A stretch of 40,514 bases of DNA from Fibrobacter sp. (lineage in GTDB: Bacteria > Fibrobacterota > Fibrobacteria > Fibrobacterales > Fibrobacteraceae). The notes beneath the pieces were generated by a model. The model was not told the origin of the DNA. It did not search any database and saw nothing but the letters and a program-made list of their open reading frames with translations. Below, piece after piece: positions 46 to 13,629 of the stretch. The position numbers were made by a program, and so were the translations under genes. The stretch covers positions 1 to 40,514 of the forward strand of contig JAISUZ010000084.1 in the NCBI GenBank assembly GCA_031271785.1. Direction: 5' to 3'. Within the stretch, counting starts at the first letter, position 1. Each line of letters opens with the position of its first letter.

Positions 46-74
46 TTGACAAAGTTCCATTCTTTATGTAAATT
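46..74 (+). promoter_or_regulatory. Candidate promoter of the trp operon
   Basis: A perfect TTGACA lies at 46-51. With a 17-base spacer the -10 would be TAAATT at 69-74 (4 of 6 matches to TATAAT). With a 13-base spacer it would be TATGTA at 65-70. Transcription would then begin close to the leader-peptide ATG at 81, leaving little or no 5' leader for it. A TATAAA at 14-19 could belong to an upstream promoter instead. The assignment is inference from motif matches only. Confidence 0.45.
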
Positions 75-80
75 TTCCGC

Positions 81-134
81 ATGCAAAACACAATTTCTAT
101 TCAATCTTTTGGTTGGTGGTGGATGACCCCGTAA
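81..134 (+). CDS. trpL: Tryptophan operon leader peptide TrpL
   Basis: This 17-codon reading frame encodes MQNTISIQSFGWWWMTP and ends in TAA at 132-134. Three consecutive TGG codons at 114-122 are the hallmark of a trp leader peptide: ribosomes stall there when charged tRNA-Trp is scarce. It is followed by mutually exclusive hairpins and a U-tract terminator, all upstream of trpE. No Shine-Dalgarno sequence is visible before the ATG; the likely transcription start is so close that the peptide may be translated from a leaderless or nearly leaderless mRNA. The role is known from enteric trp operons; its assignment here rests on the codon run and the matching hairpins. Confidence 0.88.
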   Translation: MQNTISIQSFGWWWMTP

Positions 135-184
135 TTCGGAGTCGTTTTTGTGTTTTCCTGTTTTTGGAAAAGAAAGGCTCCGGA
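125..184 (+). promoter_or_regulatory. trp attenuator: pause hairpin and antiterminator segments
   Basis: Segment 1 (125-131, GACCCCG) can pair with segment 2 (137-143, CGGAGTC) with one mismatch and a five-base loop. Segment 2 (135-143) can instead pair with segment 3 (176-184) through nine pairs including two G-U wobbles, which would consume the left arm of the terminator. A ribosome stalled on the Trp codons (114-122) covers segment 1 and frees the 2:3 antiterminator. A ribosome that reaches the TAA at 132 covers segment 2 and lets the terminator form. The pairings are read from the sequence; the mechanism is that of the E. coli trp attenuator. Confidence 0.82.
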
Positions 185-200
185 TCCCGGAGCTTTTTTT
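177..200 (+). terminator. trp attenuator terminator
   Basis: A perfect seven-base stem GCTCCGG (177-183) / CCGGAGC (187-193) with the loop ATC is followed directly by seven T residues (194-200). This is a canonical intrinsic terminator placed 53 bases before trpE, so it acts inside the operon leader. Its left arm overlaps antiterminator segment 3. Confidence 0.9.
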
Positions 201-252: not shown

Positions 253-1671
253 ATGAGTATAGAAAAAAGAACCGATAGTTTACACCTCATTCTCTCCGGA
301 GATCAATTTACGCCGTACTCGCTTGCCAAAAAGCTGAATGCCGTGGCTGTGCTTGAATCGGCGAGCTTTTCCCAAGGGAAGGCGCGTTACTCTATTTTGA
401 TGCTTTCGGAGGCATTCCGGGTTCGCCAGGAGGCAGACGGCGTTTACCTTATGATAAACGAAGAAAAACGGCGTTATCCGGGAAATCCGCGCGATATTCT
501 CGATGCGCTCCATGATATTGCGGCGGAAAACGAGGCGCCGGAAAACAATATTCCTTTACCTGCTTCGGGTATCGGTTACCTGAGTTTTGAGTTCGCCGCC
601 CGCTGCGATACGATTGCATTCCCGGCAAACCAAACGGACAATCTCGGTATTCCGGAAGCCGAGTTTATGGTAGGGCACATTTATATTATCTTCGACCACT
701 TTAACGAAAAACTTCATTTATTTGCATTAAATTACCGGGAACATGAAATTGATTTGGAGGCGGCGGTACGGCAGGTAAAATCAAGGCTTGAAGACGATGA
801 TTTTTCTTACCTCGCTCCTCCGAAATCCATCCCGGCTTATTCCGTTCTCACCGATGAAACGCTTTCCAAAGCACAGTATCTTGAAAAAATCGACATTCTA
901 AAGCATCATCTCACGGAAGGCGATATTATTCAAGCGGTTCCTTCGCGGCGGTTACAGTTAAAATCCGGCGCGGATGCTCTCGACATCTACCGGCGGCTTC
1001 GCTCCATTACGCCGTCACCTTATTTAATTTATCTGGATTTTAAAGAGTTTCAGCTGCTCGGCGCTTCTCCCGAGAGTTTGATTAAGGTGAAAAACAGAGT
1101 GGCTTTGGTGCCGCCTATTGCCGGCACGATGCGCCGCGGCAAAAATGAAATCGAAGACGCGCGCTTAAAATCGGAACTGCTCGCGAACCCCAAAGAGAGA
1201 GCGGAACACTTGATGCTTTTGGATCTTGCGCGCAACGACCTCGGCAGAGTTTGCGAAGCAGGAACGGTTAAAGTCACAAAGAATACGGAATGCGAAATGT
1301 TCAGTCACGTGATGCATTTGGTTTCCGAAGTGCAGGGTAAACTGGAACCCGGTAAACGCTCTGTCGACGCGCTCCGTTCGGTTTTCCCGGCAGGCACGGT
1401 GAGCGGCGCTCCGAAAATCAGCGCTATTGAAATTTTATCCCGGATCGAACCGGAAAAACGAAACTTTTATGCCGGCGCGGTCGGTTACTTGCAATCGAAC
1501 GGTGATCTCGATTTTTGCATTACCATCCGTTCGGCCTTGAAACAAGGCGATACTTGGACACTCCAGTCCGGAGGAGGCATTGTTTATGCTTCCGAACCGG
1601 AACGCGAATGGGAAGAAACCAATGAGAAACTGATGGCCATGAGAGCTGTTTTCGAAGGGAGTATCCAATGA
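253..1671 (+). CDS. trpE: Anthranilate synthase component I (TrpE)
   Basis: TrpE converts chorismate to anthranilate in the cytoplasm using ammonia supplied by the TrpG amidotransferase, here the N-terminal part of the next gene. The 472-residue length fits the family. The C-terminal chorismate-binding domain is clear: PIAGT near residues 288-292 carries Ala-Gly-Thr, as in anthranilate synthases, rather than the Lys of aminodeoxychorismate synthase. AGTVSGAPK and the final SGGGIVYASEPEREWEET block are also present. The N-terminal VLES near residue 33 corresponds to the LLES element of the tryptophan feedback site, so allosteric inhibition is likely. No clear ribosome binding site precedes the ATG. 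The stop overlaps the next start as ATGA, which suggests translational coupling. It is the first structural gene behind the attenuator. Confidence 0.96.
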   Translation: MSIEKRTDSLHLILSGDQFTPYSLAKKLNAVAVLESASFSQGKARYSILMLSEAFRVRQEADGVYLMINEEKRRYPGNPRDILDALHDIAAENEAPENNIPLPASGIGYLSFEFAARCDTIAFPANQTDNLGIPEAEFMVGHIYIIFDHFNEKLHLFALNYREHEIDLEAAVRQVKSRLEDDDFSYLAPPKSIPAYSVLTDETLSKAQYLEKIDILKHHLTEGDIIQAVPSRRLQLKSGADALDIYRRLRSITPSPYLIYLDFKEFQLLGASPESLIKVKNRVALVPPIAGTMRRGKNEIEDARLKSELLANPKERAEHLMLLDLARNDLGRVCEAGTVKVTKNTECEMFSHVMHLVSEVQGKLEPGKRSVDALRSVFPAGTVSGAPKISAIEILSRIEPEKRNFYAGAVGYLQSNGDLDFCITIRSALKQGDTWTLQSGGGIVYASEPEREWEETNEKLMAMRAVFEGSIQ

Positions 1672-3263
1672 TTGTTTTAATTGATAACTACGATTCGTTT
1701 ACTTACAATACTTATCAAATGCTTGCGACTCTTTCTACGGAACCGATTACGGTTCTGAGAAGCAAAGAGTGCTCGCTCGAAGAAATCGAACGTTTGCATC
1801 CGAGCCGGCTTATTCTTTCTCCGGGTCCCGGGCAGCCGGAAAATGCGGGTATTACGGTGGACGCCATCCGGCATTTCGCAGGAAAAGTGCCGATTCTCGG
1901 GATTTGTCTCGGGCATCAAGCTATCGGTTATGCTTTCGGCGGAAACATTATCCGCGCAAAATATCCGCGGCACGGCGTTGTTGAAACTATTGCAGTCGAC
2001 GGAAAAGGTATTTTCAGAAACATCGGAAAATCTGCCGATTTTGCCGGGTATCACAGCCTTGTGATCGAACGCGAGAGCCTCCCTGCCGATTTTGAGATTT
2101 CGGCGACGGCGGAAAACGGAGAGATTATGGGAATCCGCCATAAAACGCTCCCGATCGAAGGTATTCAATTTCATCCGGAATCCATCGCCTCTCCGCAAGG
2201 GAAATCCGTTTTTCAGGCTTTTCTGAATTACCGGCGCGAAGCAATTTCCAACACACAAATTCTCACGCGCCTTATGAACGGCGAAGACATGACCCGGGAA
2301 ACCGCCGAACTTTTTATGGAAGATTTAACCAACGGCAATCTCGATGAAAGGCAAATGGCTGCGATCCTTACCGCGCTTGCGATCAAAGGTCCCGCCGCCG
2401 AAGAAATTGCCGGCTGCGCGAGCGTTCTCTCCCGGAAAAAGAAACCGCTCCATTTGGAGAACACCGCGGTCGCCGATATTGTTGGTACCGGCGGCGACGG
2501 CAAAGGAAGTTACAACGTAAGTTCCATGGCGGCTATCATCGCCGCCGCTTGCGGACTCCCTGTCGCCAAACACGGAAACCGCGCGGTTTCAAGCAAATCC
2601 GGTTCTGCGGATTTCTACGAAGCGCTCGGAATCAAACTGGATGCCTCCCCCGAAAAAGCCGCCGAACAAATTAAGAAACACCAGTTCACGTTCTTATACG
2701 CTCCGGTTTATCACAGCGCCATGCGTTACGCCGCACCCGTGCGGAAAGCGCTCGGAATCAAAACGCTGATGAATTTGATCGGCCCGCTTTCGAACCCGGC
2801 AAACGCCGATTTTCAAATGCTTGGCGTTTATTCCAAAGAGTTGCTGGTTCCCGTAGCGCAAGCTTCTAAAATGCTCGGCAGTAAAAGAGTCCTCGTGGTT
2901 TGCAGTCACGACGGTTACGATGAAATTTCTCCGGCGGCGCCTACCGATTTTGTGGAAATCGACGAGGATAACCAACTCAAATCCTACACGTTACGCCCCG
3001 AAGATTTCGGTATTTCCCCTTGTTCCGACGGAGACCTCGCCGGAGGAAGCGCGGAAGAAAACGTGAAACTCACTTACGAGATGCTCGACGGAAAAGGAAA
3101 CCCCGGCATTCGCTACTCCTCGGCCATGAACGCGGGAGCCGCTCTCTACATCGGGAAAAAAGCTTCTTCCGTTCAGGAAGGTTTTCAAATGGCCATGAAG
3201 GCTCTTGAAAACGGAAGCGTCAAACAAAAAATCGAACAAATTAAAGAGGACAGCGATGACTGA
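1668..3263 (+). CDS. trpGD: Anthranilate synthase amidotransferase / anthranilate phosphoribosyltransferase fusion (TrpGD)
   Basis: This is a two-domain fusion of 531 residues. Residues 1 to about 195 form a class I glutamine amidotransferase: the nucleophile Cys80 lies in GICLGHQ and the His169/Glu171 pair in QFHPES. It hands ammonia to TrpE. Residues about 200-531 are TrpD, which transfers phosphoribose from PRPP to anthranilate; GTGGDGKGSYNVSS (PRPP and pyrophosphate loop) and the KHGNRAVSSKSGSAD block are intact. The same fusion occurs in E. coli and its relatives. The start overlaps the trpE stop by four bases, and the end overlaps the trpCF start by eight. Both halves look catalytically complete. 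Confidence 0.96.
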   Translation: MIVLIDNYDSFTYNTYQMLATLSTEPITVLRSKECSLEEIERLHPSRLILSPGPGQPENAGITVDAIRHFAGKVPILGICLGHQAIGYAFGGNIIRAKYPRHGVVETIAVDGKGIFRNIGKSADFAGYHSLVIERESLPADFEISATAENGEIMGIRHKTLPIEGIQFHPESIASPQGKSVFQAFLNYRREAISNTQILTRLMNGEDMTRETAELFMEDLTNGNLDERQMAAILTALAIKGPAAEEIAGCASVLSRKKKPLHLENTAVADIVGTGGDGKGSYNVSSMAAIIAAACGLPVAKHGNRAVSSKSGSADFYEALGIKLDASPEKAAEQIKKHQFTFLYAPVYHSAMRYAAPVRKALGIKTLMNLIGPLSNPANADFQMLGVYSKELLVPVAQASKMLGSKRVLVVCSHDGYDEISPAAPTDFVEIDEDNQLKSYTLRPEDFGISPCSDGDLAGGSAEENVKLTYEMLDGKGNPGIRYSSAMNAGAALYIGKKASSVQEGFQMAMKALENGSVKQKIEQIKEDSDD

Positions 3264-4734
3264 TATTTTGTCGCAAATCATCGAAAAGCGAAAAGCGGAT
3301 CTTCTGAGTTTAGGCGTGACATTCGGAATTCAAATTCCGGAAAAACGCATGCGCCCGGCAGTTCCGTTTTTAAGCGAATGCGGAACGATTTTAGAAGTAA
3401 AGCGCGCCTCGCCCTCGAAAGGAAATATCGCCCCGGATTTAAACCCGGTGGTACTTGCTAAAACTTACGCAAGCGCCGGCACGCAAGCGATTTCCGTTTT
3501 GACGGAACCTCATTTTTTCAAAGGTTCGCTCACGGATTTGATAAACGCTTCCAGCGCAGTTCACACCTGCTCATTTCTCCGCAAAGATTTTATTCTCGAA
3601 GAAGAAGAAATCGAGGTTTCCTATAAATGCGGCGCCGATGCGGTTTTACTGATCGCGCGGATTTTGGAAACACCGCATCTTTTGAAACTCTCGGCGCGCT
3701 GCCGCGAGTTCGGCATGACTCCGTTTATTGAAATCCGTTCGCCGGAGGATTTGGAGAAACTCAAAATAGCGGCAGCCGAAGGCATGGTTACAGGCGGCGT
3801 AAACGCACGCGACCTAGCCACATTCCGCATTGACCCTCTGATTCCGGCGGCGCGGCGCGACTTAATGCCGTGCAAAGCGGTGTTTGAATCGGGCGCTCTC
3901 ACGCCCGAGGCGGCGGCAAAAGCGAGAATGCTCGGGTTTGAAGGGATTTTAATCGGAGAAGCCGCCGCGAAAAATCCGGAAAGCGCTAAAAATCTGGTTC
4001 GGGGATTTGTGGATGCGCGCCCGAATCAAAACGGAAGTTTCTGGAAAGAAATTGCAAAGCGGCGCGAAGTTCTCAAAAAAGAAAAGAACGCACGGCCGCT
4101 TGTGAAAATCTGCGGCATCACAAACGAAGAAGACGCCATGCTTGCCAAAGATTCCGGCGCCGATCTCCTCGGGTTTGTCTTCGCCGAAAGCCCGCGGAAA
4201 GCCTCGGCCGAAACGGTGAAATCCATCCGGAAAAAATTACCGGCAAATTCACAAAATCCTCTTCTTGTGGGCGTAATCACAAACCCCGATTCACCCGAAG
4301 GAAAGGAAGCGATTACTTTAGCGAAAGTTGGCATTTTAGACGCGGTTCAATTCCACGGCATTCCTTTACCGGCATTCGATACCGAAAACGGTTTTGCGTT
4401 TTACGCTGCGCTCCGCGTAGGGAATAACGCCGATATCGAACAACTTCAAGAATTACTCCGGAAAGGGGAACCGCGCGTGATGATTGATTCCAAAACGGTC
4501 GTGTGCGCCGGCGGCTCCGGGATTCCCGTTTCGGAAACCCTCGTGGAGCAGGCAAAAGATTTGGCGCCGCTCTGGCTTGCCGGAGGTATCTCGCCCGAAA
4601 ACGTAGAGGAAATCTTCCGGAAATGGAATCCGGAACTCATCGATCTCTCAAGCCAAATTGAGGCCGCCCCCGGAAAAAAAGATTCCGAAAAAATGAAACT
4701 ATTTTTTGAAAAAATAAACAGGAGTTTCTCATGA
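3256..4734 (+). CDS. trpCF: Indole-3-glycerol phosphate synthase / phosphoribosylanthranilate isomerase fusion (TrpCF)
   Basis: The preferred start is the ATG at 3256, five bases after AGAGGA (3245-3250) and overlapping the trpGD stop. This gives 492 residues; a longer frame from 3205 adds 17 residues inside trpGD and is less likely. The N-terminal half is TrpC (EVKRASPSKGNI, FLRKDFILEEEEI, ESGALTPEAA, GFEGILIGEA). The C-terminal half is TrpF (VKICGITNEEDAML, GFVFAESPRKAS, AVQFHG, IDLSSQIE). TrpF isomerises phosphoribosylanthranilate and TrpC closes the indole ring, so the fusion performs two sequential steps. The TrpC GVNNRDL motif reads GVNARDL, a mild deviation. The stop overlaps the trpB start. 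Confidence 0.95.
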   Translation: MTDILSQIIEKRKADLLSLGVTFGIQIPEKRMRPAVPFLSECGTILEVKRASPSKGNIAPDLNPVVLAKTYASAGTQAISVLTEPHFFKGSLTDLINASSAVHTCSFLRKDFILEEEEIEVSYKCGADAVLLIARILETPHLLKLSARCREFGMTPFIEIRSPEDLEKLKIAAAEGMVTGGVNARDLATFRIDPLIPAARRDLMPCKAVFESGALTPEAAAKARMLGFEGILIGEAAAKNPESAKNLVRGFVDARPNQNGSFWKEIAKRREVLKKEKNARPLVKICGITNEEDAMLAKDSGADLLGFVFAESPRKASAETVKSIRKKLPANSQNPLLVGVITNPDSPEGKEAITLAKVGILDAVQFHGIPLPAFDTENGFAFYAALRVGNNADIEQLQELLRKGEPRVMIDSKTVVCAGGSGIPVSETLVEQAKDLAPLWLAGGISPENVEEIFRKWNPELIDLSSQIEAAPGKKDSEKMKLFFEKINRSFS

Positions 4735-5984
4735 GTGAGAATGGATACTTCGGCGTCTTCGGCGGAAAATATGTCCCCGAAGTGCTTCGCCGCCCTATTG
4801 ACGAGCTGGAAAAAGGATTCTATGAAGCCATTCAAGATCCTTCGTTTCTGGAAGAACTGAAAACGCTTCAGGATAACTTTATCGGCAGGCCTACCCCGCT
4901 TTTGTTTGCAAAGAACGCGACCGCCGATTTAGGCGGCGCAAAGATTTACATTAAAATGGAAGGGCTCGCGAACACCGGCGCCCACAAAATCAATAACGCC
5001 ATCGGGCAAGCGCTCCTGGTGAAACGCATGGGAAAAACACGCGTTATCGCCGAAACCGGCGCCGGACAACACGGGGTTGCCACCGCCGCCGCCTGCGCTC
5101 ACCTCGGAATTCCCTGTGAAATTTACATGGGCGAAGTGGATGTGCGCCGCCAGCAACCGAACGTCGCCACCATGGAAATGTACGGCGCGAAAGTGATTCC
5201 CGTGCGCTCCGGAAGCAAAACGCTCAAAGACGCGATTAACGAAGCCATGCGCGACTGGGCAAGCCACCCGGACACTACGCACTATCTCATCGGTTCGGCG
5301 CTCGGCCCGGCTCCATTTCCCGATATGGTGCGCATATTCCAATCGGTGATCGGACGCGAAGTAAAAGAACAGGCCGCCGCGAAAAATCTGGATATCGCCG
5401 CCCTCGTCGCTTGTGTCGGCGGCGGCTCGAACGCCATCGGATTCTTTGAGCCGTACCTGGAAGCAACCGCGCCGAGACTTATCGGCGCCGAAGCGGGCGG
5501 TATCGGAACCGGTTACGGCGAAAACGCCGCACGCATGACCGGAAACGCCGCCCGGGAAGGAATCGTTCACGGTTACAAAAGCCGATTTCTCCTCACCGAA
5601 GACGGACAAATGGCGGAAACACGCTCCATCTCCGCCGGGCTCGATTACCCGGGCATCAACCCGCAATTCGCCGACCTCGGGGTTTCCGGCAGAGTGGAAT
5701 TCATGGCGATTCCCGACAAAGAAGTCCTGGAAGCGCTCCAATACTTTGCACGCAAAGAAGGCGTATTCTTCGCTCTCGAAAGCGCGCACGCCGCCGCCGC
5801 CGCGCTCCGCATTGTCAAAGAAATCCCTAAGGACAAAGCGATTATTATCAATATGTCCGGGCGCGGCGACAAAGATATCTTCATCACTTCGCCCGTATTC
5901 CGCAACAGGCAATGGAAAGAATTCCTGAAGTCCGAGCTCACGCGCCTCGAATCCGGCGCCGACATTTATCATGCCAAAAACTGA
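4731..5984 (+). CDS. trpB: Tryptophan synthase beta subunit (TrpB)
   Basis: TrpB joins indole and serine to make tryptophan using pyridoxal phosphate. The 417-residue protein has the PLP lysine Lys86 in NTGAHKINNA, the phosphate-binding GGGSNAIG loop, the ETGAGQHG segment and SAGLDYPGI. The close correspondence to classic TrpB (family length about 400) argues for TrpB1 rather than the longer TrpB2 type. AGGAG sits six bases before the ATG. Its start overlaps the trpCF stop by four bases and it is followed by trpA, its partner for indole channelling. Confidence 0.97.
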   Translation: MSENGYFGVFGGKYVPEVLRRPIDELEKGFYEAIQDPSFLEELKTLQDNFIGRPTPLLFAKNATADLGGAKIYIKMEGLANTGAHKINNAIGQALLVKRMGKTRVIAETGAGQHGVATAAACAHLGIPCEIYMGEVDVRRQQPNVATMEMYGAKVIPVRSGSKTLKDAINEAMRDWASHPDTTHYLIGSALGPAPFPDMVRIFQSVIGREVKEQAAAKNLDIAALVACVGGGSNAIGFFEPYLEATAPRLIGAEAGGIGTGYGENAARMTGNAAREGIVHGYKSRFLLTEDGQMAETRSISAGLDYPGINPQFADLGVSGRVEFMAIPDKEVLEALQYFARKEGVFFALESAHAAAAALRIVKEIPKDKAIIINMSGRGDKDIFITSPVFRNRQWKEFLKSELTRLESGADIYHAKN

Positions 5985-5994
5985 GGAGAATTTT

Positions 5995-6774
5995 ATGAAA
6001 CCCACCTCCCCTATCCGCTTAATGGCTCACCTCGTTGCCGGATTCCCGGATTACGAAACCGGGCTCCTCATCGCCGATTCCCTCGTGAAAGGCGGCGCGC
6101 ACTTTTTGGAAGTACAGTTTGCCTTCACCGACCCGAGCGCCGATGGTCCGGCGATTCAAACCGCCAATGCTCTCGTACTCTCCAAAGGGTTTACCACAGC
6201 CCGCGCATTTGAATTTGTAGCGGCGATTCATGAACGGCACCCGGATATACCGGTATTTGTCATGACTTACGCTTCGCTCGTTTACACCCCGCAAGTGAAA
6301 CACTTTGTCGCGGAAGCGAAAGCCGCCGGTGTCGCCGGGTTAATCATACCCGACCTCCCGTTCGATCACGACGAAGGACTCACCGAAGCGTGCAAAGCAA
6401 ACGGAATGGTAAATATCCCTGTGGTCGTACCGTCCATGAGCGAAGAGCGTCTCGCACAAATTATTGAGATGAAGTTCCCCTACCTCTACACCGCGCTCCG
6501 CGCCGGGATCACCGGGCAAAAAACCGTCATCGACCAAAATACGCTCGACTTTATCCGGCGCGTGAGCGAGGGCGGCGCGAAAGTACTCGGCGGGTTCGGT
6601 ATCGGCAGCGGCGAACAATCCAAAACGCTCGCCCCTCATGTCTATTCGGTGATCGCGGGCTCCGCATTCATCAACATCGTGCACGAACTCTTCGATGAGA
6701 CGCACTTGGAAGAATCCCGGAAAAAAATCGCTCAGGCGATCGAAGCCAAAGCGCGCGAACTCAGCGGCGGGTGA
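5995..6774 (+). CDS. trpA: Tryptophan synthase alpha subunit (TrpA)
   Basis: TrpA cleaves indole-3-glycerol phosphate and passes indole to TrpB. The start at 5995 is preferred because GAGGAG (5983-5988) precedes it by six bases; this gives 259 residues, while the in-frame ATG at 5971 would lie inside trpB. Glu39 (in LEVQF) and Asp50 (in DPSADGP) match the catalytic Glu49/Asp60 pair of E. coli TrpA, and the RAGITG loop and the GGFGIG phosphate site are present. It is more divergent than the other trp genes: ELG reads EVQ and SRAG reads LRAG. It is the last gene of the operon; a structured repeat begins seven bases after its stop and may help end transcription. Confidence 0.93.
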   Translation: MKPTSPIRLMAHLVAGFPDYETGLLIADSLVKGGAHFLEVQFAFTDPSADGPAIQTANALVLSKGFTTARAFEFVAAIHERHPDIPVFVMTYASLVYTPQVKHFVAEAKAAGVAGLIIPDLPFDHDEGLTEACKANGMVNIPVVVPSMSEERLAQIIEMKFPYLYTALRAGITGQKTVIDQNTLDFIRRVSEGGAKVLGGFGIGSGEQSKTLAPHVYSVIAGSAFINIVHELFDETHLEESRKKIAQAIEAKARELSGG

Positions 6775-10359: not shown

Positions 10360-11496
10360 ATGAAACGTTGCCTTTTTCTTTTATGCTTCGCACTTACTTT
10401 TTCGGGGTGTTACTTTGCTCCGGGAATGGTTTTGGGAGAACGCGCTTCTGCCGACGGCGAAGTGGATACTCTCGCTTCTTTTCAGGGTGCCGAAGTTCAT
10501 TTGAGAAGCATCACTCCGGCCACATTGACTTCCATGGCGACCGAATCCAAGGCCGGCTCGAAAATTCCGCAGAAACTTTTGGAATACCGGCCGGATTCTT
10601 ACAAACTCGGATACTTCGACGTAGTTCAAGTGACCGTTTGGGAACATCCCGAACTCACTCTCCCGCTCGGCCCTTACCGCAGCGATAACGCTATCGGGCA
10701 AATGGTGAATGAAAACGGGGAATTGTTTTTCCCTTACGCCGGACAACTGAACGTGCTCGGAAAATCCATTACCGAATTGAAAGAAGATATTGTCTCCGCC
10801 CTTTCCAAAGTGCTGAATAATCCTCAAATCGATATTCGCCTGATCAAAAGCCAAAGCCAGCGCGCTTATGTGCAAGGAGCCGTTTCGAAAGCAGGCGTAG
10901 TGAGTCTTTCCGATGTGCCGGTCACTCTTTTGGAAGCCCTCAATATGGCCGGCGGCGTTTCCAATTTGGGCGACCCGACGCGTGTCGAACTTTCCCGGGA
11001 CGGTGAAACAACCGTGGTGGATTTACTCGGCGTGTATCCGTTCGGAGAAGGGCCTGCCGATATTTTATTGAAAAGCGGCGATGTGATTCGCGTGGCTTCC
11101 GCCACAGAGGCGCAAGCTTATATTTTGGGAGAAGTTTCAAAACAACAGGCGCTCCCTTTCGTGAACGGAAAAATGACTCTTTCCCAAGCGATCGCCACCG
11201 TCGGCGGTTTGCAGGCATTGAGCGCGCAGAGCCGCGGGATTTACGTGATCCGCGGCGGCGCCAACCCGGCGGATACCATTCGGATTTTCCATTTGGATTC
11301 CCGTAATCCTCTCGCTCTCGTGTTCGGCGATCATTTTGAACTCGAACCGCGGGATGTGGTTTTTGTCGATGCCACCGGACTTGCCCGCTGGAATCGCGTA
11401 ATGACTCAAATTCTCCCAACGGCGCAAGCGGTTTACTATACTGCTCAGTCGGTTCACGGCATCAAAGTCGCCAAAGACGATATTCTCAATTGGTAA
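10360..11496 (+). CDS. wza: Wza-type polysaccharide export outer-membrane lipoprotein
   Basis: This 378-residue protein matches E. coli Wza (379 residues) in length and layout. The signal peptide ends in FSGC, with Cys17 the lipidated residue. The poly-export domain spans about residues 70-170 (LGYFDVVQVTVWEHPEL, VNENGELFFPYAGQLNV, GAVSKAGVVSLSD). Two SLBB-type repeats follow to about residue 350, and the C-terminal LARWNRVMTQILPTAQAVYY segment resembles the Wza barrel-forming amphipathic helix. It should form the octameric outer-membrane exit channel for a capsule or exopolysaccharide. A -10-like TATACT at 10314-10319 lies upstream without a good -35. The wzc-like kinase gene follows after nine bases. 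No glycosyltransferases are nearby. Confidence 0.9.
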   Translation: MKRCLFLLCFALTFSGCYFAPGMVLGERASADGEVDTLASFQGAEVHLRSITPATLTSMATESKAGSKIPQKLLEYRPDSYKLGYFDVVQVTVWEHPELTLPLGPYRSDNAIGQMVNENGELFFPYAGQLNVLGKSITELKEDIVSALSKVLNNPQIDIRLIKSQSQRAYVQGAVSKAGVVSLSDVPVTLLEALNMAGGVSNLGDPTRVELSRDGETTVVDLLGVYPFGEGPADILLKSGDVIRVASATEAQAYILGEVSKQQALPFVNGKMTLSQAIATVGGLQALSAQSRGIYVIRGGANPADTIRIFHLDSRNPLALVFGDHFELEPRDVVFVDATGLARWNRVMTQILPTAQAVYYTAQSVHGIKVAKDDILNW

Positions 11497-11505
11497 ACGG
11501 ATTTT

Positions 11506-13629
11506 ATGAAAAACAGCAATCAGTTACCTCCGGAAGATTCCCAAGAAGAATCCATTGACATCAGCGAAGTTTTAAAGGTTTTGCTTGTCAATAAAAGATG
11601 GCTCGCGCTGTTTCTCGCGATCGGTATTTTTGTGAGCCTTTTCTACGCGCTTTGGTCCCGGCCGGTGTACAAAACCGATACGCTCATTCAGCTTGACATG
11701 TCCAAACACCCAAGCACTGTCATGAACTCAATGGGAGCAATGGCCGGACTTTTTGAAACCGCAAACCCCGCGGTTACGGAAATCGAATTGATCACGAGCC
11801 GCAGCGTGCTGATGGACGTTGTAGAATCCCAAGGGCTTCGCTTTTATGCCACCCCTACCGGATTTATAAACCGCCTTCTTCAAAGAGAAGGGCGCTTACG
11901 CATAAGTGATCTTTACATTCCGGAAGTAGCCCGCACGGAAAAATGGACGGCGGAAACGATTTCGGAAACTGAATATGAGCTCAAGGATGGTTATAATAAC
12001 TCCATACTGAAAGGCATTGTAGGTGAAACTTACCGTGTTCCTTACGCCGGCGATACACTCCGTATTCGCGCTTCAATACTGCGTGGTCCGGTAGGGCAAA
12101 AGTTTGCAATTGGAGAAATTCACCTGCTTACCGCAACCCGCGCTTTAAGAAACAGTTTAAACATCGCCGAAAAAGGGAAACAATCGGGTATTATTTCCAT
12201 CTCGCTGGAAAACCGTTATCCCGGTAATGCCTCCCGTATTTTAAATGCGATTACCCAAACTTATTTAAAACAAAACATTGAAATGCGAAATGAAGAAGCC
12301 AAACAAACTCTTAATTTTTTGGGAAAGCAACTTCCGAACGTAAAAGCAAGACTGGACAGCGCCGAAAAAGCATTGGGCGCGTTCCGCCATAAAGAAGGAA
12401 CCATTGACTTATCCGGAGAAACTCAAATTGTCCTTCAAAAACAAGTGGATTTCCAAAAACAAATTCTCGCTTTAGACCGTCAGAAACAGGAAAACCTGCG
12501 GCTGTTCAAAGAAGATCATCCGTCTATCCAGGTGATCGCTCAGCAGCAGGAACAACTGCAAAAAGAAATTGCGAAGCTGAATGCGCAAGCCAAAACGTTG
12601 CCTTTGACTCAACAGGAATACCTTTCTCTGGAACAGAATGTGGCGATCAATAATTCCATTTACACTTCCATTCTCAATAGCATTCAACAACTTAGCGTGG
12701 TTCAGGCGGGAGAAAACGGAAATGTGCGTATTGTGGATAGCGCCCAAGTGGAGTTGAAACCGATCAAACCGCGACGCAAAGTGATTCTTCTCGCCGGTGT
12801 TTTCGGCGGGTTTGCCCTCGGTGTCGGTTTTGTGTTTCTCCGCCGCATTTTAAATAAAGGAGTGCGTTCCAGTACCGAAATCGAAAGGGAAACCGGAATT
12901 TCGGTTTACGCCAAAGTACCCGAACATAAAGGCAGTCATAAAAAATCGAAAGATCATTTGGAGCTCATTGTGGAAAATGAGCCGAACGCTCCCACCAGCG
13001 AAGCGCTCCGCGTACTCCGTTCCGCGCTGGAATTTTCTTTGAAAGGAAACGTTTTGATGATCACGGGGCTTTCGCCGAATGCAGGTAAATCCTTTGTATC
13101 CAATAACTTAGCGATTCTTTTTAAGGGTCTCGGAAAGCGAGTTCTGCTGATCGACGCCGATTTACGCAACTCTTTGCACAGCCGCAAAATCAAAGGCTTA
13201 ACGGAACTCCTCCACAACAAAAAAACATGGGAAGAAGTGGTTGCTCCGTACGGCAAAACCGGCATTGATTTTCTGCCTCCGGGGCGCATTCCGGTAAACC
13301 CGAGCGAACTCCTCGCAAGCCCGAAATTCAAGCAAATCATTGACCGCGCGAGAGAATCGTACGATTTGGTGATCGTGGACACCGCTCCTGTCATGCTGGT
13401 TACGGACGCCCTTATTATTAGCCAGTATGCCGATTTCAGCCTGATTGTCCTGCATTACGGAACTCACTCCATCGAAGAAATTCAGGAAGCCCTAAAAAAC
13501 CTTTCCATTTCGTCTCCGGATAAGGATAAAGCCTTCGTGTTTAACCGCTGTGTCTATGACGGAAGCAAAAACGGCTATGGTTATAATTACGGTTACGGTT
13601 ATGGCAACGGTTACGTAAACAAAAAGTAA
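11506..13629 (+). CDS. wzc: Wzc-like polysaccharide co-polymerase and bacterial tyrosine kinase
   Basis: This 707-residue protein has the full Wzc plan. A Wzz-type domain starts with a first membrane span near 32-50, followed by a long periplasmic region with coiled-coil/GNVR character (about 270-400) and a second span near 426-446. The cytoplasmic BY-kinase has Walker A GLSPNAGKS (near 521-529), Walker A' LLIDADLR (near 547) and Walker B VIVDTAP (near 622). The last 25 residues hold seven tyrosines separated mainly by Gly and Asn, the expected autophosphorylation cluster. It should work with Wza to set chain length and drive export. The usual phosphatase Wzb is not encoded nearby. Confidence 0.93.
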   Translation: MKNSNQLPPEDSQEESIDISEVLKVLLVNKRWLALFLAIGIFVSLFYALWSRPVYKTDTLIQLDMSKHPSTVMNSMGAMAGLFETANPAVTEIELITSRSVLMDVVESQGLRFYATPTGFINRLLQREGRLRISDLYIPEVARTEKWTAETISETEYELKDGYNNSILKGIVGETYRVPYAGDTLRIRASILRGPVGQKFAIGEIHLLTATRALRNSLNIAEKGKQSGIISISLENRYPGNASRILNAITQTYLKQNIEMRNEEAKQTLNFLGKQLPNVKARLDSAEKALGAFRHKEGTIDLSGETQIVLQKQVDFQKQILALDRQKQENLRLFKEDHPSIQVIAQQQEQLQKEIAKLNAQAKTLPLTQQEYLSLEQNVAINNSIYTSILNSIQQLSVVQAGENGNVRIVDSAQVELKPIKPRRKVILLAGVFGGFALGVGFVFLRRILNKGVRSSTEIERETGISVYAKVPEHKGSHKKSKDHLELIVENEPNAPTSEALRVLRSALEFSLKGNVLMITGLSPNAGKSFVSNNLAILFKGLGKRVLLIDADLRNSLHSRKIKGLTELLHNKKTWEEVVAPYGKTGIDFLPPGRIPVNPSELLASPKFKQIIDRARESYDLVIVDTAPVMLVTDALIISQYADFSLIVLHYGTHSIEEIQEALKNLSISSPDKDKAFVFNRCVYDGSKNGYGYNYGYGYGNGYVNKK

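Follow-up and report, generated by a model that had tools for sequence, protein, structure and literature searches.

The DNA directly upstream of trpE in the stretch analysed here (the window, 40,514 nucleotides, which starts 252 nt upstream of trpE) very probably constitutes a ribosome-mediated attenuator of the trp operon, for whose leader peptide the most likely template is a leaderless mRNA. Its anatomy, conservation, competing structures, outer helix and promoter spacing are evident from the sequence, from folding and from comparison with relatives. The host genome belongs to the Fibrobacteraceae, the same family as Fibrobacter intestinalis (NZ_FUWU01000018), as an earlier note on this DNA had supposed in considering a Fibrobacter-type bacterium. 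The features of the element and of the operon behind it are as follows:

46..51, + strand: -35 box TTGACA (consensus scan; TTGCCA or TTGACA at the same position in relatives)
69..74, + strand: -10 box TAAATT, with a 17-nt spacer from the -35 box and ending 6 nt before the leader ATG
81..134, + strand: trpL leader ORF of 17 codons, read from the sequence and kept in relatives
86..93, + strand: segment A, 5' arm of the outer helix, leader codons 2-5 (AAACACAA) (fold; pairing test in relatives)
114..122, + strand: Trp control codons (TGG)3, three in tandem, codons 12-14 (sequence)
125..131, + strand: segment 1, 5' arm of the pause, or anti-antiterminator, hairpin (sequence, fold)
135..143, + strand: segment 2, pairing with segment 1 (via 137-143) or with segment 3 (fold, masked folding)
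148..155, + strand: segment B, 3' arm of the outer helix (TTGTGTTT), 8/8 Watson-Crick with 86-93 (fold, pairing tests)
176..184, + strand: segment 3, 3' arm of the antiterminator, of which 177-183 doubles as 5' arm of the terminator (sequence, fold, masked folding)
187..200, + strand: segment 4 (187-193) and U tract (194-200), intrinsic terminator (sequence, fold)
253..1671, + strand: trpE, anthranilate synthase component I (Spirochaetota-type clade)
1668..3263, + strand: trpGD fusion
3253..4734, + strand: trpCF fusion
4731..5984, + strand: trpB
5995..6774, + strand: trpA

Competing structures in the leader RNA

The WWW leader, pause hairpin, nine-pair antiterminator and perfect terminator described in the earlier note are all present. 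The leader ORF, read directly from the sequence, runs from the ATG at 81-83 to the TAA at 132-134 and encodes MQNTISIQSFGWWWMTP; TGGTGG is invariant in an alignment of 21 leader sequences (A1). The pause hairpin (125-131/137-143) comprises six pairs and one C.A mismatch (128/140), and is lengthened by folding to 121-131/137-147, whereas the antiterminator (135-143/176-184) has nine pairs, including two G.U pairs, and is extended by folding while segment 4 is not yet transcribed. The terminator at 177-200 consists of a perfect 7-bp stem (177-183/187-193) with a 3-nt loop, followed by seven T residues (194-200). Folding of the RNA 81-200, proposed earlier as a check, indeed reveals a mutually exclusive antiterminator and intrinsic terminator, the fold having a z-score of -4.5 with none of 200 shuffles equally stable. 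An Rfam scan of the window gave no match at the gathering threshold, including to Trp_leader (RF00513), which is also absent among the matches with E<=5 for positions 1-400; the Rfam Trp_leader family therefore does not cover the Fibrobacter element. Sub-threshold matches to mir-1954 and Phe_leader were judged not credible.

The effect of ribosome position was modelled by folding the RNA as far as segment 3 with the ribosome footprint masked, the ribosome being placed on either the final Trp codon or the stop codon. In the window, segment 3 pairs upstream with a mean probability of 0.94 for the stalled ribosome versus 0.19 for that at the stop codon; the corresponding values across leaders are 0.66 and 0.27, with the stalled value being the higher in 71 of 74 distinct leaders. 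The earlier proposal that the classical segments lie at correct ribosome-footprint distances is thus borne out. The thermodynamic preference of the full-length RNA is for the terminator, even with a stalled ribosome, so that kinetics must decide between the structures, as holds for every attenuator of this type.

We considered it very unlikely that the WWW ORF is translated with regulation being translational or Rho-based, the 177-200 hairpin acting as a constitutive partial terminator that sets the basal level only. The terminator is strong, and some read-through must be constitutive, as such an arrangement would have it; however, the mutually exclusive pairing of segments 1, 2 and 3 is kept across diverged leaders, as is the contrast between stalling and stopping, and a fixed terminator would not preserve tandem TGG codons.

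Predicted leaderless start and conserved outer helix

A good promoter ends 5-8 nt upstream of 73 of the 78 trpE-linked leader ATGs that we identified, but of only 4 among 3224 control ATGs taken from this DNA. Since the promoter ends 5-8 nt before the ATG, transcription should begin at the AUG; in the window the start is predicted at or next to nt 81, giving a leaderless leader mRNA. The leader peptide is probably translated from such an mRNA, leaderless initiation being suggested by promoter spacing. This spacing is lacking in L033, L039 and L175, which are among the most distant leaders.

Through the outer helix, the region at the leader start is paired with RNA immediately 3' of segment 2; the helix directly abuts the extended pause hairpin. 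The AUG is part of it in many leaders, and a comparable helix is closed from different sequences in the minimum-energy folds of many diverged leaders. RNAalifold on a MAFFT alignment recovered only the terminator, because the helices slide; hence, alignment-free pairing tests were used instead. Pairing of a leader with its own downstream RNA was stronger than in permuted combinations, with z = -5.95 in 20 trpE leaders, z = -5.92 in the 13 leaders from other trp genes and z = -9.53 for both sets combined, and dinucleotide shuffles gave a Fisher p of about 8e-14, the leaders within the set being phylogenetically related to one another; singly, the helix is significant (p<0.05) in 13 of the 33 leaders, with p = 0.09 for the window leader. 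The outer helix is conserved, and its proposed role, together with the 1:2 hairpin, is that of a lock on the start region which would make termination the default. On a predicted leaderless mRNA, it leads to the general prediction that the start region would be locked if a ribosome does not arrive in time.

From these features we infer a response to tryptophan with the following kinetic steps. RNA polymerase would start at the leader AUG, and a ribosome would load on the 5' AUG. When charged tRNA-Trp is scarce, the ribosome would stall at codons 12-14 and mask segment 1, such that segment 2 (135-143) could pair with segment 3 (176-184), no terminator would form and trpEGDCFBA would be transcribed. 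When tryptophan is plentiful, the ribosome would reach the stop codon (132-134) with its footprint covering segment 2, enabling segments 3 and 4 to form the terminator, with transcription ending near nt 200. If no ribosome has loaded, the outer helix (86-93/148-155) and the 1:2 hairpin would lock away segment 2, leading to default termination, and would also tie up the leader start region.

Distribution of the leader and origin of the operon

TrpE was sought in 168 Fibrobacterota genomes and the upstream DNA was scanned for a WW(W) leader ORF and a terminator. Leader ORFs with two or three tandem Trp codons and a terminator behind them were found upstream of trpE at 78 loci, representing about 70 distinct sequences; Fibrobacterales account for nearly all of these, and a few belong to Fibrobacterota families further removed. 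The leader is carried by nearly every Fibrobacter-like genome with the window type of trpE, and is also upstream of trpE in both genomes of a sister family, in two genomes of the same family with a very different TrpE (L047, L048), and in one genome from each of four families further away (L030, L033, L039, L175), of which L033, L039 and L175 are the weaker cases. In the upstream scan it was not found in the majority of the distant Fibrobacterota families, nor was a Trp leader detectable upstream of the different TrpE of genus g6 of the same family (G005, G014, G023, G026, G029, G032, G036). The earlier note had held that related genomes lacking the TGG run and hairpins would speak against the element; both are nearly universal in the trpE leaders of close relatives, but their occurrence is patchy in distant Fibrobacterota and they were not found in g6.

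A covariance model built from 21 leaders matches 120 of the 168 phylum genomes at E<=0.01, the weakest of these matches possibly being bare terminators. It gave additional full-length matches in Fibrobacter genomes, of which 59 further loci were classified by the gene behind them: trpB (36), trpB or a TrpB-like gene (19, including a few with an identity of about 30% that are probably trpB), trpE (2), trpCF (1) and trpGD (1). Copies upstream of trpB, TrpB-like genes, trpCF and trpGD are what one would expect if the element responds to Trp. Where relatives have their trp genes split, several of the pieces are each preceded by an attenuator copy of their own. The window genome, in which the trp genes form one operon, gave one full-length match; its extra R1 matches were rejected as attenuators because they are partial terminator matches. 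Terminator-like sites over 7 kb are as frequent as in shuffles, as would suit a chance arrangement in an AT-rich upstream region, yet recurrence at 78 trpE-linked and 59 further loci refutes this reading, the probability of which is negligible.

It is also very improbable that the leader is chiefly the gene of a trans-acting sRNA or peptide with its main role elsewhere, as with rnTrpL/peTrpL of Sinorhizobium meliloti. In favour of such a role are this precedent (PMC7298713) and the abundance that a terminated, leaderless leader mRNA would have. All classified copies are directly upstream of trp genes and the peptides vary freely outside the Trp run, both of which argue against this reading, though the leader may have an additional role in trans. 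With respect to other regulators, neither TrpR nor TRAP, one of which would be encoded where it controls the trp operon, had a match in 31 genomes, while positive control genomes were matched. A scan for runs of His codons, which might have pointed to further attenuators, gave no useful information.

Two observations concern the wider trp gene set. A TrpB-like PLP enzyme (NF009057) lies behind its own WWW attenuator in Fibrobacter (L241, L242, L244, L245, L247, L249), a position that links this enzyme, itself poorly understood, to the supply of tryptophan. In two Fibrobacter genomes (L282 in G134, L310 in G152) an attenuator precedes trpB, about 2 kb upstream of trpE, and none was found directly upstream of trpE, as if trpB and trpE were in one shared unit. 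An apparent divergent orientation of trpE and trpG in Fibrobacter was dropped, being an orientation artefact of minus-strand loci. Elsewhere in the window (10360-13629), two ORFs resemble, from their translations by eye, an outer-membrane polysaccharide export protein and a Wzc-type chain-length/tyrosine kinase protein.

The window operon (253-6774) and the L055-L130 loci are closest to Treponema and other Spirochaetota, together with one Helicobacter genome (TrpE about 60%, TrpB 68-73%). In the TrpE tree, the window and most Fibrobacterales lie inside a Spirochaetota-type clade, which also holds one Helicobacter, and which is split from the other Fibrobacterota TrpE with 100/100 support on a branch of 2.3 (midpoint root). 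This tree indicates lateral transfer of the trp operon; an enteric origin, hinted at by the identical gene order, was rejected, since TrpE groups with Spirochaetota. No Trp-rich leader with the expected features was found at 30 sampled spirochaete-type loci, and some Fibrobacterota with the other TrpE type do carry such a leader. The simplest reading is that a resident attenuator took over the acquired operon, with independent origin or loss as alternatives; the leader sets of the two TrpE types have similar peptides, e.g. MKNANFAIRFWWWQAL and MNNANLTFRRWWWPL, and may be homologous. We tentatively suggest, at somewhat less than even probability, that the Fibrobacteraceae have a dispersed trp regulon in which leaderless attenuators act in cis and share a conserved lock on the start region, and that the resident switch was placed before an operon acquired from Spirochaetota, whose own copies are without the switch. 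If so, the attenuator would have outlasted the replacement of the genes under its control.

Relation to known attenuators

Each feature of the element has a precedent, and it is their combination that seems unreported in the literature searched. As in E. coli trpL (RF00513), there are WW control codons and 1:2, 2:3 and 3:4 segments, and the gene order trpE-trpGD-trpCF-trpB-trpA is identical. The computed fold of E. coli K-12 trpL also has a long-range helix (GGGUAUC/GAUACCC) that encloses the leader ORF, and Das and colleagues (1983) reportedly found that translation of E. coli trpL is inhibited by distal RNA. E. coli differs, however, in having TrpR as well as a 5' UTR before trpL, whereas the Fibrobacter leader mRNA is predicted to be leaderless and TrpR was not found; furthermore, the window TrpE is not of the enteric type (37% over 350 aa).

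The S. meliloti trpL (rnTrpL) is likewise a Trp attenuator transcript beginning at the trpL ATG, but of the three trp operons there, attenuation is confined to trpE(G) (PMC7298713); in Fibrobacter, attenuators precede several trp units. The ilvBNC leader of Corynebacterium glutamicum is also leaderless, and its anti-antiterminator hairpin is proposed to block the translation start, leaving the terminator free (PMC11857589); this logic is that which we propose for the Fibrobacter outer helix and 1:2 hairpin, though ilvBNC differs in structure and in its control codons, which are for branched-chain amino acids. Classical trp attenuators with double or triple UGG occur outside the Proteobacteria in Corynebacterium and Streptomyces, with C. 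diphtheriae having two trp operons with one attenuator each (PMC1262725); these are of another phylum, and the Fibrobacter set also includes a TrpB-like gene and trpCF.

A 2010 survey placed leader-peptide attenuation only in Proteobacteria and Actinobacteria, to which Firmicutes were then added (PMC2965389), and a 2013 study regarded it as gamma-proteobacterial, with rare transfer (PMC3766115). The literature search returned no paper joining Fibrobacter with attenuation and leader peptides; the wide survey of Lopatovskaya et al. 2010 (cited in PMC4833913) may already list related cases. The phylum is apparently previously undescribed for this mechanism. The earlier statement that the element extends trp attenuation beyond the groups where it is best known is fair, albeit with precedents in Actinobacteria (PMC1262725) and a suggestion, based on reported clues, of leader-peptide attenuation in Flavobacterium (PMC9723704). 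The present results add Fibrobacterota to its recorded range, and the rumen Fibrobacter, with separate attenuators before several trp units per genome, provide a natural series for studying attenuator multiplication.
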